Shown piece by piece: positions 5,775 to 22,392 of a DNA stretch of 64,000 nt. The stretch comes from Bordetella parapertussis (GTDB taxonomy: Bacteria; Pseudomonadota; Gammaproteobacteria; Burkholderiales; SG8-41): positions 20,227 to 84,226 of the forward strand of contig CAMDLH010000002.1 in the NCBI GenBank assembly GCA_945901405.1, given 5' to 3'. The translations under genes were made by a program, and so were the position numbers. The notes beneath the pieces are model-generated. The model did not search any database. It saw only the letters and a program-made list of their open reading frames with translations, and had not been told where the DNA came from. The first letter of the stretch is position 1, and each line of letters opens with the position of its first letter.

Positions 5775-6647
5775 ATGAAACCCGCGCCATTTGCCTATCA
5801 CGATCCGCGCAGCAAGAGCGATGTGCTCGCCCTTCTTGCCGCAAACGAAAATTCACGCGTGCTCGCCGGCGGCCAGTCGCTGGTGCCGATGCTTAACTTT
5901 CGGCTCGCGGCCCCCGACCACCTCATCGATCTGAATCGCGTCGCGGATTTGCGCGGCATCACGCGCGCCGGTGACAAATTCGTGCTGGGCGCAATGACAC
6001 GCCAGAGCGAAATCGAAGCCTCGGATGAACTGCACGCGGCACTGCCGATCCTGCGCGAGGCGGTGTTGAATGTAGGCCACCGCCAAACGCGCAATCGCGG
6101 CACAATTGGCGGCTCGCTGTGTCACCTTGATCCGTCGGCGGAGTTGGTGACCGCGGCGGCGGCACTTGAAGCGACCTTGATCGCCGAGAGCGGCAAAGGC
6201 GCGCGCCGCATCGCCATTGCCGACTGGGGCCAGGGTTATCTCACCAACGCACTGGCCGACGGAGAAATACTCACTGCGGTGGAATTGCCTGTGTGGCCCG
6301 CTGGGCACGGCCATGCGTTTGTGGAATTTGCACGGCGGCATGGTGACTTTGCGATCGTCGCGGTGGCGGCACTACTCACGCTCGACGCCAACGGAAAGAT
6401 AGACCGCGTGGCGATTGCAATCGGCGGTTGCGCGGCAAATCCTTTGCGGCTCACTGAGGTGGAGGCCGCGCTCAAAGGCAACACGCCATCGGCGGAACTT
6501 TTCAAATCAACCGCGCGTCTGGCTTCAAAGATCGACGCGCTTTCCGATCCCTTCGTCAAGGCTGACTATCGAAAACACCTCGCGCGCGTGCTCACCGAGC
6601 GCGCGCTGGTTGCCGCCGCGCAACGCGCGCACGGAGCAAAATCATGA
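5775..6647 (+). CDS. FAD-binding medium subunit of a molybdenum hydroxylase (CoxM-like)
   Basis: SRVLAGGQSLVPMLNFRLAAPDHLIDLNRV...RNRGTIGGSLCHLDPSAELVTAAAAL. Confidence 0.93.
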   Translation: MKPAPFAYHDPRSKSDVLALLAANENSRVLAGGQSLVPMLNFRLAAPDHLIDLNRVADLRGITRAGDKFVLGAMTRQSEIEASDELHAALPILREAVLNVGHRQTRNRGTIGGSLCHLDPSAELVTAAAALEATLIAESGKGARRIAIADWGQGYLTNALADGEILTAVELPVWPAGHGHAFVEFARRHGDFAIVAVAALLTLDANGKIDRVAIAIGGCAANPLRLTEVEAALKGNTPSAELFKSTARLASKIDALSDPFVKADYRKHLARVLTERALVAAAQRAHGAKS

Positions 6648-7135
6648 GCACGACCCGCACCATCAAACTAACGGTCAACGGCATCACGTACGAGCGCACC
6701 GCCGAACCGCGCACGACACTCGCCGACTTTCTGCGCAATGAATTACGGCTCACCGGTACGCACATCGGCTGCGAGCACGGCGTATGCGGCGCATGCACGG
6801 TAATCGTCGACGGAAAATCGGCGCGCTCGTGCCTGATGTTCGCGGTGCAGGCTGATGGCACCGCCGTGCGCACCGTCGAATCCCTCGGCACCATGGTAAA
6901 ACTGAACCCGCTGCAACAGGCGTTCACCGATCACCACGCGTTGCAATGCGGCTTTTGCACGCCGGGCATTTTGATGACGCTGACCGAATACATGGAGCAA
7001 CGCAAACCCGGCTCGCCGCAACCCACCGACGCCGAGATACGTGATGTGTTGTCCGGCAACATCTGCCGCTGTACCGGCTATCAGTTCATTATTGATGCCG
7101 CACTCGCCGCCATCAACGCAGGGGCCGCGAAATGA
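6644..7135 (+). CDS. 2Fe-2S small subunit of a molybdenum hydroxylase (CoxS-like)
   Basis: CEHGVCGACTVIVDGKSARSC and CGFCTPGI...CRCTGYQ cluster ligands; overlapping start and stop with neighbours. Confidence 0.95.
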   Translation: MSTTRTIKLTVNGITYERTAEPRTTLADFLRNELRLTGTHIGCEHGVCGACTVIVDGKSARSCLMFAVQADGTAVRTVESLGTMVKLNPLQQAFTDHHALQCGFCTPGILMTLTEYMEQRKPGSPQPTDAEIRDVLSGNICRCTGYQFIIDAALAAINAGAAK

Positions 7136-18609: not shown

Positions 18610-18861
18610 ATGAAAACCATCTCCATTCGAGAACTGCACGAAAAGACCGGCGATTGGGTCAGGCGCAGCGTAACGCTCGGCCCCATTACCGTGACCGATC
18701 ACGGCAAAGTCGTCGCGCAAATCGTGCCCGTGCAGGCAATGCCGACGGTTAACCCCTTCGCCACGCGCAAGCTGCGCAAGGGTTATGCGCGACTGCGCGG
18801 CAAACTCAAAGGCGGCACGGACAGCACACTATTGGTTTCCGAAGACCGGGGCCGTGCGTGA
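18610..18861 (+). CDS. Phd/YefM-type antitoxin
   Basis: MKTISIRELHEKTGDWVRRSVTLGPITVTDHGKVVAQIVP. Confidence 0.85.
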   Translation: MKTISIRELHEKTGDWVRRSVTLGPITVTDHGKVVAQIVPVQAMPTVNPFATRKLRKGYARLRGKLKGGTDSTLLVSEDRGRA

Positions 18862-19294
18862 AGCCGTGAGTTATTTCGACTCCGCATACATCGCCAAGTT
18901 CTACGTGGACGAGCCGGAAAGCGATGCCGTCAGGCGATTGGCAGAGGCCCTCGGGCGCGTGCATTGCAGCGCACTGGGCCGCGTCGAAGTCACGAGCGTG
19001 TTTCATCGCAAGTGGCGTGAGGGCGCTTTCACGGAAAGCCAATTTCGCGAAGTCTCCGCGCAATTCACCGACGATTGCGCAGCAGGGTTGTGGACATGGA
19101 TATCGATCACCGACAAGCTGATCGCCGATACTGCAGAATCCATTCGCACGCTAGGAAAAACCACGACAATCCGTTCCGCAGATGCGTTGCACTTGGTGTG
19201 CGCCAGAGCGCACGGGCTACGGCGTGTCTATACCAACGACCGGCACATGTTGTTGGCGGCGGCAATGTTTGGGGTTGAGGCAGTGGCGGCTTGA
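18854..19294 (+). CDS. PIN-domain toxin (VapC-like)
   Basis: SYFDSAYIAKFYVDEPESDAVRRL...TIRSADALHLVCARAHGLRRVYTNDRHM; GTG start at 18854 overlaps the antitoxin end. Confidence 0.85.
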   Translation: MREAVSYFDSAYIAKFYVDEPESDAVRRLAEALGRVHCSALGRVEVTSVFHRKWREGAFTESQFREVSAQFTDDCAAGLWTWISITDKLIADTAESIRTLGKTTTIRSADALHLVCARAHGLRRVYTNDRHMLLAAAMFGVEAVAA

Positions 19295-19350
19295 GGCGAC
19301 TGGCGCAATGAACAGAAAACCAAATTGAGCGACTTGTTGAACGTACGATA

Positions 19351-19458
19351 ATGAAAGACTTGACCCCTCGCCCACTGCTCACGGGCAACGTCAAGCACTT
19401 TGCCCCGATCAAAGGTTTGGTCATCGAACGATTCGATTTAACGCAAGACGCAAGCTAG
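19351..19458 (+). pseudogene. C-terminal remnant of a VapC-type PIN toxin
   Basis: MKDLTPRP-LLTGNVKHFAPIKGLVIERFDLTQDAS*; the LxTGNxKHFAPIKGL tail is characteristic of VapC C-termini; the N-terminus is missing. Confidence 0.6.
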
Positions 19459-19546
19459 AACGGCTGCACCAGATTTGGGCGAACCAGCGATGATCAAACC
19501 CATCAAAACCAAAGTCGGCTATCCGGTCCATTACAGACCGACGTTC

Positions 19547-19576
19547 GCTTTTTATGGAAAGTCAAATGTTATGGAA
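19547..19576 (+). repeat. Left terminal inverted repeat (30 bp)
   Basis: gctttttatggaaagtcaaatgttatggaa, exact reverse complement of 21343-21372. Confidence 0.95.
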
Positions 19577-19629
19577 TGCTAAGCGGGTCGAACCCAGGGA
19601 AAGTAGCGTTCTGATCCTCTGATTGCTTT

Positions 19630-20625
19630 TCATAATACTTTGCCATGTAACGATGCGATCAATTTGTCCGGGACGGTGAACCGTCCCGGCCGAAGGGACG
19701 GCGGTACTGTGCCCTCAATGGTTTCAATTTTTTCCACAGGGTCGGCGTGAAGATACATTTCTGTCGTTTGCATAAAAGCGTGACCAAGCCATAACGAAAC
19801 CTTTCGCAAATCGCCGGTCGCCTGGTAAATCATCATGCCGCAGGTGTGTCGAAGCACATGAGGGGAAACATTCTTTCGCTCCAGCGTCGGACAGATCGGC
19901 GTAGCGACCCGCACATATTTGTCGAGTAAATATGCAAATCCGACCCGAGTCATGGACTCGCCCCTTGCATTGACGAAGAGTTCGGGCGTCGAGACGTTGC
20001 CCCGCACTGCCAGCCACGCTCGAATATCACTCGCGGTTTGTTTCCACAATGGCAGCGAGCGCTGCTTCCGTCCCTTGCCCATGACTGAGATCGTTGGTGT
20101 TGGCTGCAATGTCACCGCGTTGAGCCATAAACCAAGCAGTTCGGATACCCGAAGTCCGGTAGCAAAGCCAAGGTGCAGCATTGCCCGGTCGCGAATTCCT
20201 GAGCGAGTCCGGACGTCCGGTGCATTCAGGATCGCTTCCATCTCGGTTTTGGTGAGGTAGCTGATCAACGGGATGTCTGTTTTTTTTGATGGAATCGCAA
20301 GAATGCGCAGGCTTTGGTTAAGCACAGATGGCACGCGGTGCTCGACAAAGCGCATAAAAGATTTGATCGCAGCCAACCGGATATTGCGGGTGCGCGGGCT
20401 GTTACCTCTTTGCGATTCGATATACGCAAGAAAGTCCATAACCAGTGACGCATCCAGCTGCTCCAGGCACAGTTTGGAGGGCGTCGCCTTGAAGCGCTGG
20501 CTGGCGAACTCGAAGAACAACTGATAGGTATAGGCATAGCTTTCACAGGTATGGGGACTCGCTCCGAGCTGTACGGGCAGTCGTTCGCGCAAGAAAGCGG
20601 TGATATGAGGCGCAATCGGGGTCAT
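19630..20625 (-). CDS. Tyrosine recombinase/integrase (RitC-like)
   Basis: MTPIAPHITAFLRERLPVQLGASPHTCESYAYTY...RDRAMLHLGFATGLRVSELLGLWL...VSPHVLRHTCGMMIYQATGDLRKVSLWLGHAFMQTTEMYLH: catalytic R...HxxR...H...Y pattern present. Confidence 0.88.
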   Translation of the reverse strand: MTPIAPHITAFLRERLPVQLGASPHTCESYAYTYQLFFEFASQRFKATPSKLCLEQLDASLVMDFLAYIESQRGNSPRTRNIRLAAIKSFMRFVEHRVPSVLNQSLRILAIPSKKTDIPLISYLTKTEMEAILNAPDVRTRSGIRDRAMLHLGFATGLRVSELLGLWLNAVTLQPTPTISVMGKGRKQRSLPLWKQTASDIRAWLAVRGNVSTPELFVNARGESMTRVGFAYLLDKYVRVATPICPTLERKNVSPHVLRHTCGMMIYQATGDLRKVSLWLGHAFMQTTEMYLHADPVEKIETIEGTVPPSLRPGRFTVPDKLIASLHGKVL

Positions 20626-21220
20626 GGCTGATCTCCTGTTATGAAGGATTCGCACCTGTCGGCGATGTCTGTCATGAGTAGTGGGGTGCTCTCAAGGTAC
20701 CAGTAGGTACTCTTCGGGTGAGCGTGCCCCATGTAGGTGCCGAGCGCGAGCATATGGCGTGCGATGCGGTCCCGAGTATCGGGACATGACTAAGCGTACT
20801 ATCCCGGACGCCGCGCTGTGTCCGCATCCATTCCATAAATTCCAACAACAGGACCGGGGATTCAGCCAAACAAGGGGACGCGCAAGAAATTACAGCCCCG
20901 GTCGCTTCAAGGAAATCCACAAAAACACGGGAACCATGGTAGGCAGAGCTATGGTCGCCATTCGGCTTCCGAAGCACCCCTCGCTTCGCGAGGGCGTTCT
21001 GATATCGATGCAGCGTGTCTTGATCTAAATCACACACTGTTAGTCCATCCGCTTGTGCCCAGGCTGCGCAACGATGGGCCTCACGGGCATGACTGCGGAT
21101 GCATGCGCGGCGATATCCGCGGATTTCCAGCCACTTGATGAACTGAGCTAAATGACCACCAGCCGGTCCAGACTGAAATGCCGCGAGCGTACGGGGATCT
21201 TTGAAATAAGTTGCCAGCAT
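20622..21220 (-). pseudogene. Tyrosine recombinase with deleted catalytic core (N-terminal and C-terminal fragments only)
   Basis: N-terminal SAM-like part MLATYFKDPRTLAAFQSGPAGGHLAQFIKWLEIRGYRR...; in another frame at about 20622-20760 a C-terminal tail HMLALGTYMGHAHPKSTYWYLESTPLLMTDIADRCESFITGDQP* ending in ATGA overlap with the next recombinase. Confidence 0.75.
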
Positions 21221-21342
21221 GTTGCTCTCCTTCAAGGGTCACGCCCTGAAAGACAGCAGCATTATGGAAAGAAGATCAGGGCTTTCTCGATCAAAAAGGC
21301 CTCAGCAACGAGCCTATTGCCACCGCCTACCAACAGCTTACC

Positions 21343-21372
21343 TTCCATAACATTTGACTTTCCATAAAAAGC
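21343..21372 (-). repeat. Right terminal inverted repeat (30 bp)
   Basis: ttccataacatttgactttccataaaaagc. Confidence 0.95.
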
Positions 21373-21401
21373 GTCATGGAAAGCTTTCCATGACGCTTTT
21401 T
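21366..21401. repeat. 36-bp perfect palindrome
   Basis: aaaaagcgtcatggaaag|ctttccatgacgcttttt, self-complementary with no mismatch and no spacer. Confidence 0.97.
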
Positions 21402-22105
21402 CCACGTTCCTCAGCCCACACTTCCATCAGCCTTCCTTGCGGTCGGCTTGCCCTCATCGGGCGAAAATACGGGTTTACCCTGTTTCGCTTGAGTAACATG
21501 AGTGGGTTAGACCCTGCCTATTCACCGGTGGCGTACATGTCCGCGTACTCCCATCCTATAAAGGAATAACCTGCCACGTGCCGTTTTGGCCCGAGCCTGT
21601 CAGCAGCTTTGGCTCGACTTGATTTACGATGTTTATCAGCAGTTCACTTACATTGGTCATACCATCCAGCCTAGCTTCTATCCGCATTGCTGCTCGCAGA
21701 TCGCGTCCCTTCCTCACGGCCGGAGCGCTGCCTTTCGGCGGGCTACATTGTCCCGATCGCTTCACACACAGCCGTTGCCAGTCGTGCATGGATCGGTAGG
21801 CTACTGGTGACGGAACACCAGGTTTCTCTATGTCAAAGTCCATTGAAACAATTACTCCAGCAACTTCAGGTCGCACATAGGAATTTCAAACCACCTTTGT
21901 GCATAGGTTGCACTGTATGCCCGGCTCGACTGCCGGTCAACCACGCTGCCATTGCCTCGAACCCTGTCGATTGCAAGCATAATCCGGCCATTTCCCCGCA
22001 AAACCAGCACCGCGCATCCTGTAAAGCCCGCTGTTTTCCCTCTGTCCGCGCGCAACCTCCGAGCCGCCCCCTCGGTCCGTGTAAAACCCAGCCGATACAT
22101 TAAAT

Positions 22106-22340
22106 TCACTCCAGCAAATCCACCCGCCGCCGCGCCGGTGCAATCGCAGGTGGCCGCGGATCAAGCCCGATGTGCGCAAGTATCTTTCCGATCACCGCTG
22201 GTTCTTCAATTACAGCAACGCGCTTCAACTTTCCCCCGCACGCACAGCGCTCAATGTCGATGTCGAACACACGCTTGAGCAATCGCGCCCATGTCATGCG
22301 CACAGGCTTGCCGGGCAAGGGGTCAAGTCTTGCATTATCG
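22106..22340 (-). pseudogene. IS91-family transposase C-terminal remnant
   Basis: VRMTWARLLKRVFDIDIERCACGGKLKRVAVIEEPAVIGKILAHIGLDPRPPAIAPARRRVDLLE resembles the conserved IS91-family transposase tail; 5' truncated. Confidence 0.7.
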
Positions 22341-22392
22341 CAAGCAGGCGCGCAAGTTGCCATGACAGCGATTCATCAAGCAACAGGCGCAT
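22313..22392 (-). pseudogene. DUF5615-like toxin N-terminal remnant
   Basis: Minus-strand MRLLLDESLSWQLARLLAI, then interrupted; overlaps the end of a DUF433-like frame. Confidence 0.5.

Follow-up and report, generated by a model that had tools for sequence, protein, structure and literature searches.

The element in the window and its genes

The 64,000-nucleotide stretch of DNA analysed here (the window) carries a compact element that is present once in its own assembly and measures 1,848 bp from core to core. It holds one intact tyrosine recombinase gene together with the remnants of two others, and it interrupts a group II intron. The features at the locus are the following:

19519-19545, minus strand: intron remnant beyond the insertion core, 27 bp, matching uninterrupted introns directly beside their core
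19546-19551, plus strand: 6-bp core CGCTTT at the plain (ritC-side) edge, a direct repeat of 21394-21399, single in empty introns
19546-19576, plus strand: ritC-end terminal repeat, core plus two boxes, a 31-bp perfect inverted match to 21343-21373
19626-19635, minus strand: third box CTTTTCATAA, pointing opposite to the first two boxes, as read from the sequence
19630-20655, minus strand: ritC, intact tyrosine recombinase, 341 aa from GTG, with a likely ATG start at 20625
20622-20790, minus strand: ritB 3' remnant, the last ~55 codons, 84% identical to residues 254-308 of RitB of the relative L006
20791-21220, minus strand: ritA 5' remnant, ~145 codons, out of frame into the ritB remnant
21262-21271, plus strand: ritA-end third box TTATGGAAAG, pointing opposite to the terminal boxes, as read from the sequence
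21343-21373, minus strand: ritA-end terminal repeat, whose outermost AAAGCG (21368-21373) is the second, inverted core
21366-21401: 36-bp perfect palindrome AAAAAGCGTCATGGAAAG/CTTTCCATGACGCTTTTT, overlapping the ritA end
21394-21399, plus strand: 6-bp core CGCTTT at the outer (palindrome-side) edge, the true right end of the element
21394-21876, minus strand: 5' part of a group II intron, the insertion target, starting GTGCGACC at about 21876

An earlier, sequence-only reading had described perfect inverted repeats of 30 bp as exact inverted copies, and this 30-mer does occur in exactly two inverted copies (19547-19576 on the plus strand and 21343-21372 on the minus strand; chance expectation none), which grow outward by one base into a perfect inverted repeat of 31 bp (19546-19576 / 21343-21373). 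The two direct half-sites noticed at each terminus were borne out as TTATGGAA boxes lying 17 bp apart (19552-19559 and 19569-19576, and in mirror image at the opposite end), a spacing of 17-18 bp also being found in other RITs, as are inverted boxes near the genes comparable to the one at 19626-19635. The right end had been misplaced at 21372: the element continues through the overlapping palindrome, made of two 18-nt arms that are 100% complementary and leave no loop, up to the core copy at 21394-21399. The palindrome, the true right edge and the intron host were all three absent from that reading. Altogether, the 31-bp repeat and the 36-bp palindrome fit the description of RIT ends as an inverted repeat of ~28-34 bp with an overlapping palindrome (PMC3414803, PMC10214605).

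Recombinase-In-Trio (RIT) elements have been described as elements of ~3.5 kb with genes of the RitA, RitB and RitC families and short gene overlaps, for which the need for three recombinases is hard to explain (PMC3414803); RitA has two sequential DNA-binding domains (PMC8138268). Among the three adjacent overlapping genes ritA-ritB-ritC, only ritC is whole in the window. Its product, with domain matches to PF00589 (2.4e-26) and PF02899, is ~90% identical to RitC of L006, a RIT in a Methylococcaceae genome, and ~57-64% identical to RitC of many full plasmid trios. The ORF at 20672-21235 (minus strand) has no family match and corresponds to a RitA N-terminus running out of frame into a RitB C-terminus, the ritA part matching RitA N-termini encoded by plasmid trios (tblastn, residues 1-148). 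Since the N-terminus of ritA is fused to the C-terminus of ritB, an internal deletion took out most of both genes; judged from the length of full trios (~3.1-3.2 kb), its size would be about 1.5 kb.

RitC and both remnants belong to the RitA, RitB and RitC families, and the element is a RIT by descent while not being a working trio. The proposal of a shortened Recombinase-In-Trio element is thus supported, as the remnants and ritC match homologues in full trios and these trios have the same end layout. The ATGA overlap in the gene order, likewise proposed, is present and lies between the ritB remnant and ritC (20622-20625). As to the statement that the ends enclose only tyrosine recombinase genes, it holds for the intact ritC, the second ORF being a ritA/ritB fusion remnant.

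Between the window and L006, ritC has a dN of 0.05 and a dS of 0.44, which indicates that RitC was under purifying selection for most of that time. RitC of the window is probably still functional. The suggestion of recent activity or selection was therefore right as regards purifying selection on ritC and went too far as regards a copy that is non-autonomous and has no second intact copy or helper in the assembly. Without a working RitA and RitB, the window copy could move only with a helper RIT acting in trans, and no intact helper was found in its own assembly (327 contigs, which may be incomplete). A RIT-like fragment of the same genome (L075, on contig C109 of G000), in which a RitA-like C-terminal part (46%) is followed by a RitB-like fragment (35%) at 215-1245, is incomplete as assembled and was ruled out as the helper.

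A group II intron as target, and a relative in the opposite orientation

The host of the element was recognized from its right flank, where the intron part contains a match to Rfam RF02012 (21674-21822, 120.4 bits). Homologues of the stretch 21394-21876 are closely followed by genes annotated as reverse transcriptases of group II introns, and such homologues are found on plasmids of E. coli, Klebsiella and Sphingomonas. In uninterrupted introns, the left and right flanks of the element are joined directly and share a single core. Ten empty introns were read at this site, six with CGCTTTTT, three with CGCTTTCT and one with CGCTTCTT, and the 6-bp core CGCTTT therefore fits nine of the ten. Empty sites, which the sequence-only reading had asked to be compared, thus exist as intact group II introns with a single core. 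The insertion site falls within a stretch conserved in the intron alignment, GGAAAAAGCGAA, which may belong to domain III or to the beginning of domain IV. It is ~480 nt from the 5' end of the intron; in pO157, the maturase start as annotated follows ~130 nt downstream of it. The rest of the window intron, including the maturase gene and domains V-VI, is missing at the locus. RITs have previously been found within IS66-family tnpA, a Tn6049-type transposase gene and radC (PMC2864759, PMC3414803); judged from the joined flanks, the window adds group II introns to these targets.

Only two intron insertions are known, the window and L006. The latter is a RIT ~90% identical to the window element, at the same intron site and in the opposite orientation. 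Its palindrome, AAAAAGCGTAATGGAAAGCTTTCCATTACGCTTTTT, is at the ritC end, not at the ritA end, and borders the shared intron site on the same side as in the window; in both the window and L006, the palindrome faces the intron 5' side. Their terminal repeats agree at 28 of 31 bases, so that another element does share these ends, a point on which the sequence-only reading had made itself dependent. L006 keeps ritB and ritC; its ritA was cut off by a transposon and the ritA side is missing. Next to ritB of L006 (1067-4910) lies a transposon-like insertion with inverted ends of 68 nt (79%), a 1002-aa ORF and a resolvase-like ORF.

Beyond L006, no other copy of the window lineage was returned by a DNA search with the whole element in its own genome, 74 genomes of the family and 399 of the order. 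A search for the intron-RIT junction pattern in 369 genomes of the class gave the window only, and a RitC protein search in order and class genomes gave few RITs and no new copy of the window lineage. There was no match in the phage records and viral contigs searched, nor in the plasmids searched with the 82-bp palindrome predicted below.

Several other features surround the element. Just to its left (18610-19294), a Phd/YefM-type antitoxin is followed by a PIN-domain toxin. An GACTTGACCCC-type motif is found inverted on both sides of the intron and element taken together (19342-19373 and 22313-22340); similar copies, often paired, occur in several genomes of the same family, and the motif is perhaps a dispersed repeat. 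The weak inverted repeat 19346-19373 / 22313-22340 was set aside, because the motif recurs in several relatives. Upstream of the intron 5' end, an ORF at 22106-22363 (minus strand) has no Pfam match, and we take it to resemble the C-terminus of an IS91-family transposase.

End layout and target side across RITs

Eighteen other RITs have such a palindrome at one end, one of them imperfect (L047). From the outside inward, the plain end of a RIT reads flank, 6-bp core, box and a second box 17-18 bp on, and the palindrome end reads flank, inverted core, box, inverted box, core, box and second box. When the flanks are joined at the core, they restore the zinc domain of an IS91 transposase (PF14319), IS66 TnpB (PF05717), IstB (PF01695) or a transposase OrfA (PF01527). 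The target recurs for 15 elements (7 in IS91, 6 in IS66 tnpB and 2 in introns), arranged as follows:

IS91 target: palindrome at the ritA end in L037, L061 and L062; at the ritC end in L038, L051, L052 and L082
IS66 tnpB target: palindrome at the ritA end in L057, L086 and L087; at the ritC end in L083, L084 and L085
Intron target: palindrome at the ritA end in the window; at the ritC end in L006

In 15 out of 15 cases, the side of the target on which the palindrome is found is constant, namely the 3' coding side for IS91 and tnpB and the 5' side for the intron, while the element occurs in either orientation (palindrome at the ritA end in 7, at the ritC end in 8). If the side were independent of target polarity, the probability of such concordance in all three classes would be 2^-12, a figure to be taken as a guide only, the elements being related. 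The palindrome is at opposite ends in L051 and L062, which share a plasmid and whose RitC proteins are identical, and likewise in the near-identical L057 and L085. In the RitC tree, the intron, IS91 and IS66 lineages stand apart, each with full support, and orientation is not sorted by the tree; RitC lineages are target-specific. In six elements (L047, L052, L061, L083, L086, and L087), the cores differ between the edges or within the palindrome, and core identity is therefore not strictly required.

The palindrome counts leave out the alphaproteobacterial trios beside DUF736 genes (L039, L040, L055, L063, and L064), which are without compact ends. These DUF736-flanked trios form their own RitC clade. 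On rhizobial and Agrobacterium plasmids, such trios lie between inverted flanks with a DUF736 gene on each (L040, 2039-2786 / 6045-6792; L055; L063), and on the Ti plasmid pTiS4 the DUF736-bearing flanks of the RIT trio are a perfect 748-bp inverted repeat.

A proposed palindromic circle and its alternatives

We consider it likely that the window holds an integrated, internally deleted RIT that entered the group II intron by site-specific recombination of the tyrosine-recombinase type at the core CGCTTT, through a palindromic circle able to insert either way. In the excised circle, the two ends would join as a perfect palindrome, of 82 bp for the window, that contains two inverted core sites; the predicted 82-bp junction is, by computation, exactly self-complementary. 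Each core in this junction would be flanked by inverted boxes (CTTTCCATGA-CGCTTT-TTATGGAAAG). Either core could then recombine with the asymmetric core of the target, giving either orientation, and the unused core would be left behind as the palindrome on the side fixed by target polarity. The recombinases presumably bind the end boxes, and any assignment of one recombinase to one box would be conjectural. We infer the mobility of RITs from the empty sites, the several targets and the two orientations, the circle and the movement being deduced rather than directly observed here.

A strand-biased copy-out as proposed for SEs (strand-biased circularizing integrative elements), in place of a reciprocal cut-and-paste, would make the palindrome a by-product of single-strand exchange and replication, and this seems to us possible though unlikely. 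The 6-bp core, the site-specific target, the several tyrosine recombinases and the unequal edge cores all recall the SE fingerprint/footprint (PMC10214605). Against this, no fourth SE-type gene (Srap/GinD type) lies between the ends in the window or in the annotated full trios L061, L083, L084, and L087, and intact empty sites occur in other genomes, although these would be equally expected from excision or from sites in which nothing had ever been inserted.

Integration in one orientation only, with later flipping in place through recombination of the plain-edge core with the inner inverted core, would leave the side of the palindrome unchanged. Both cores are inverted and flank the whole body of the element, so that this scheme predicts every layout seen. 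Nevertheless, it needs the same palindromic two-core end and alters only the timing; moreover, the nearly identical pairs L051/L062 and L057/L085, the members of each being at separate loci, show opposite orientations, for which insertion either way requires no second step. We regard flipping as the general explanation as improbable; inversion and either-way insertion are compatible, and both may occur.

That the palindrome belongs to the target, for instance as an intron hairpin beside which the element inserted, is hardly credible: the same intron flank does adjoin it in the window and in L006, yet ten of ten uninterrupted introns are without it, and equivalent palindromes carrying the element's own boxes adjoin IS91, IS66, IS21 and other targets. 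We give next to no credence to a chance or non-RIT arrangement of repeats and ORFs, such as an IS or integron-like remnant, which the family match of just one of the two ORFs might suggest, given that L006 has the same ends, gene order and core, that many full trios have the same end layout, and that the element contains no DDE transposase.

The palindromic circle with either-way insertion builds on what is already known for RITs, namely the family, the inverted repeat, the palindrome and the residence in mobile elements. The main paper on RIT organization is reportedly that of Ricker et al. 2013. The core, the target-side rule, the freedom of orientation and the intron target are not described in PMC3414803 or PMC2864759; Ricker et al. 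2013 may already cover part of them. The window element resembles described RITs (PMC3414803, PMC2864759) in Rit homology, gene order, ATGA overlap, inverted repeat with palindrome and mobile-element targets, and differs from them in being without most of ritA and ritB and in sitting in a group II intron. The ends of RITs had been described as a "28-9 bp inverted repeat and overlapping palindromic sequence," unlike the usual core and arm sites (PMC3414803). The RIT derivative in the window is real and non-autonomous. Lodged in a group II intron, it is an ordinary member of the family, and of more interest is what its ends and those of its relatives tell about integration.

Other elements with several tyrosine recombinases share part of this scheme. 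To our knowledge, the Tn554 family has no palindrome of the RIT type. This family (TnpA, TnpB, TnpC) is alike in being site-specific, with more than one tyrosine recombinase and a 6-bp footprint (PMC10214605), and unlike in having two recombinases plus TnpC. SEs are likewise site-specific and use tyrosine recombinases; where the circle closes, their inverted end motifs are separated by a 6-bp spacer, and the target is restored at the core. In contrast to RITs, which have three recombinases and no further gene, SEs have intA-tfp-intB-srap and imperfect repeats of 13-19 bp, and a two-core palindrome is not described for them (PMC10214605). In GInts, three adjacent genes of the tyrosine-recombinase type act together in integration, but GInts are cargo-bearing islands and possess ginD as a fourth gene (PMC5385486), whereas the RIT here has neither. 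The 6-bp spacer of SEs and GInts is found in the predicted junction, and 6-bp cores occur in other RITs too; the window RIT works like these elements at the spacer without being a member of either group.

We lean toward the broader view that the att architecture of RITs is unlike that of other tyrosine-recombinase elements and that each lineage is specialized for a nearly invariant motif in one particular type of mobile element. We know of no other tyrosine-recombinase element whose attachment site consists of two inverted cores in a palindrome. If this view is true, the circle would offer two equivalent sites for insertion either way, the motifs would be those of the IS91 zinc finger, IS66 TnpB, IstB and the group II intron, and RITs would be dedicated parasites of mobile elements. 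The cores, empty sites, target classes and predicted junction make the scheme of RIT movement testable by simple PCR, and the window copy, as a natural deletion derivative, could serve as a minimal substrate. On plasmid PPGU19_p2 (L051, 1-6200), two tandem RITs lie within one IS91 copy; they are linked by a palindrome like the predicted circle junction, with one extra T.
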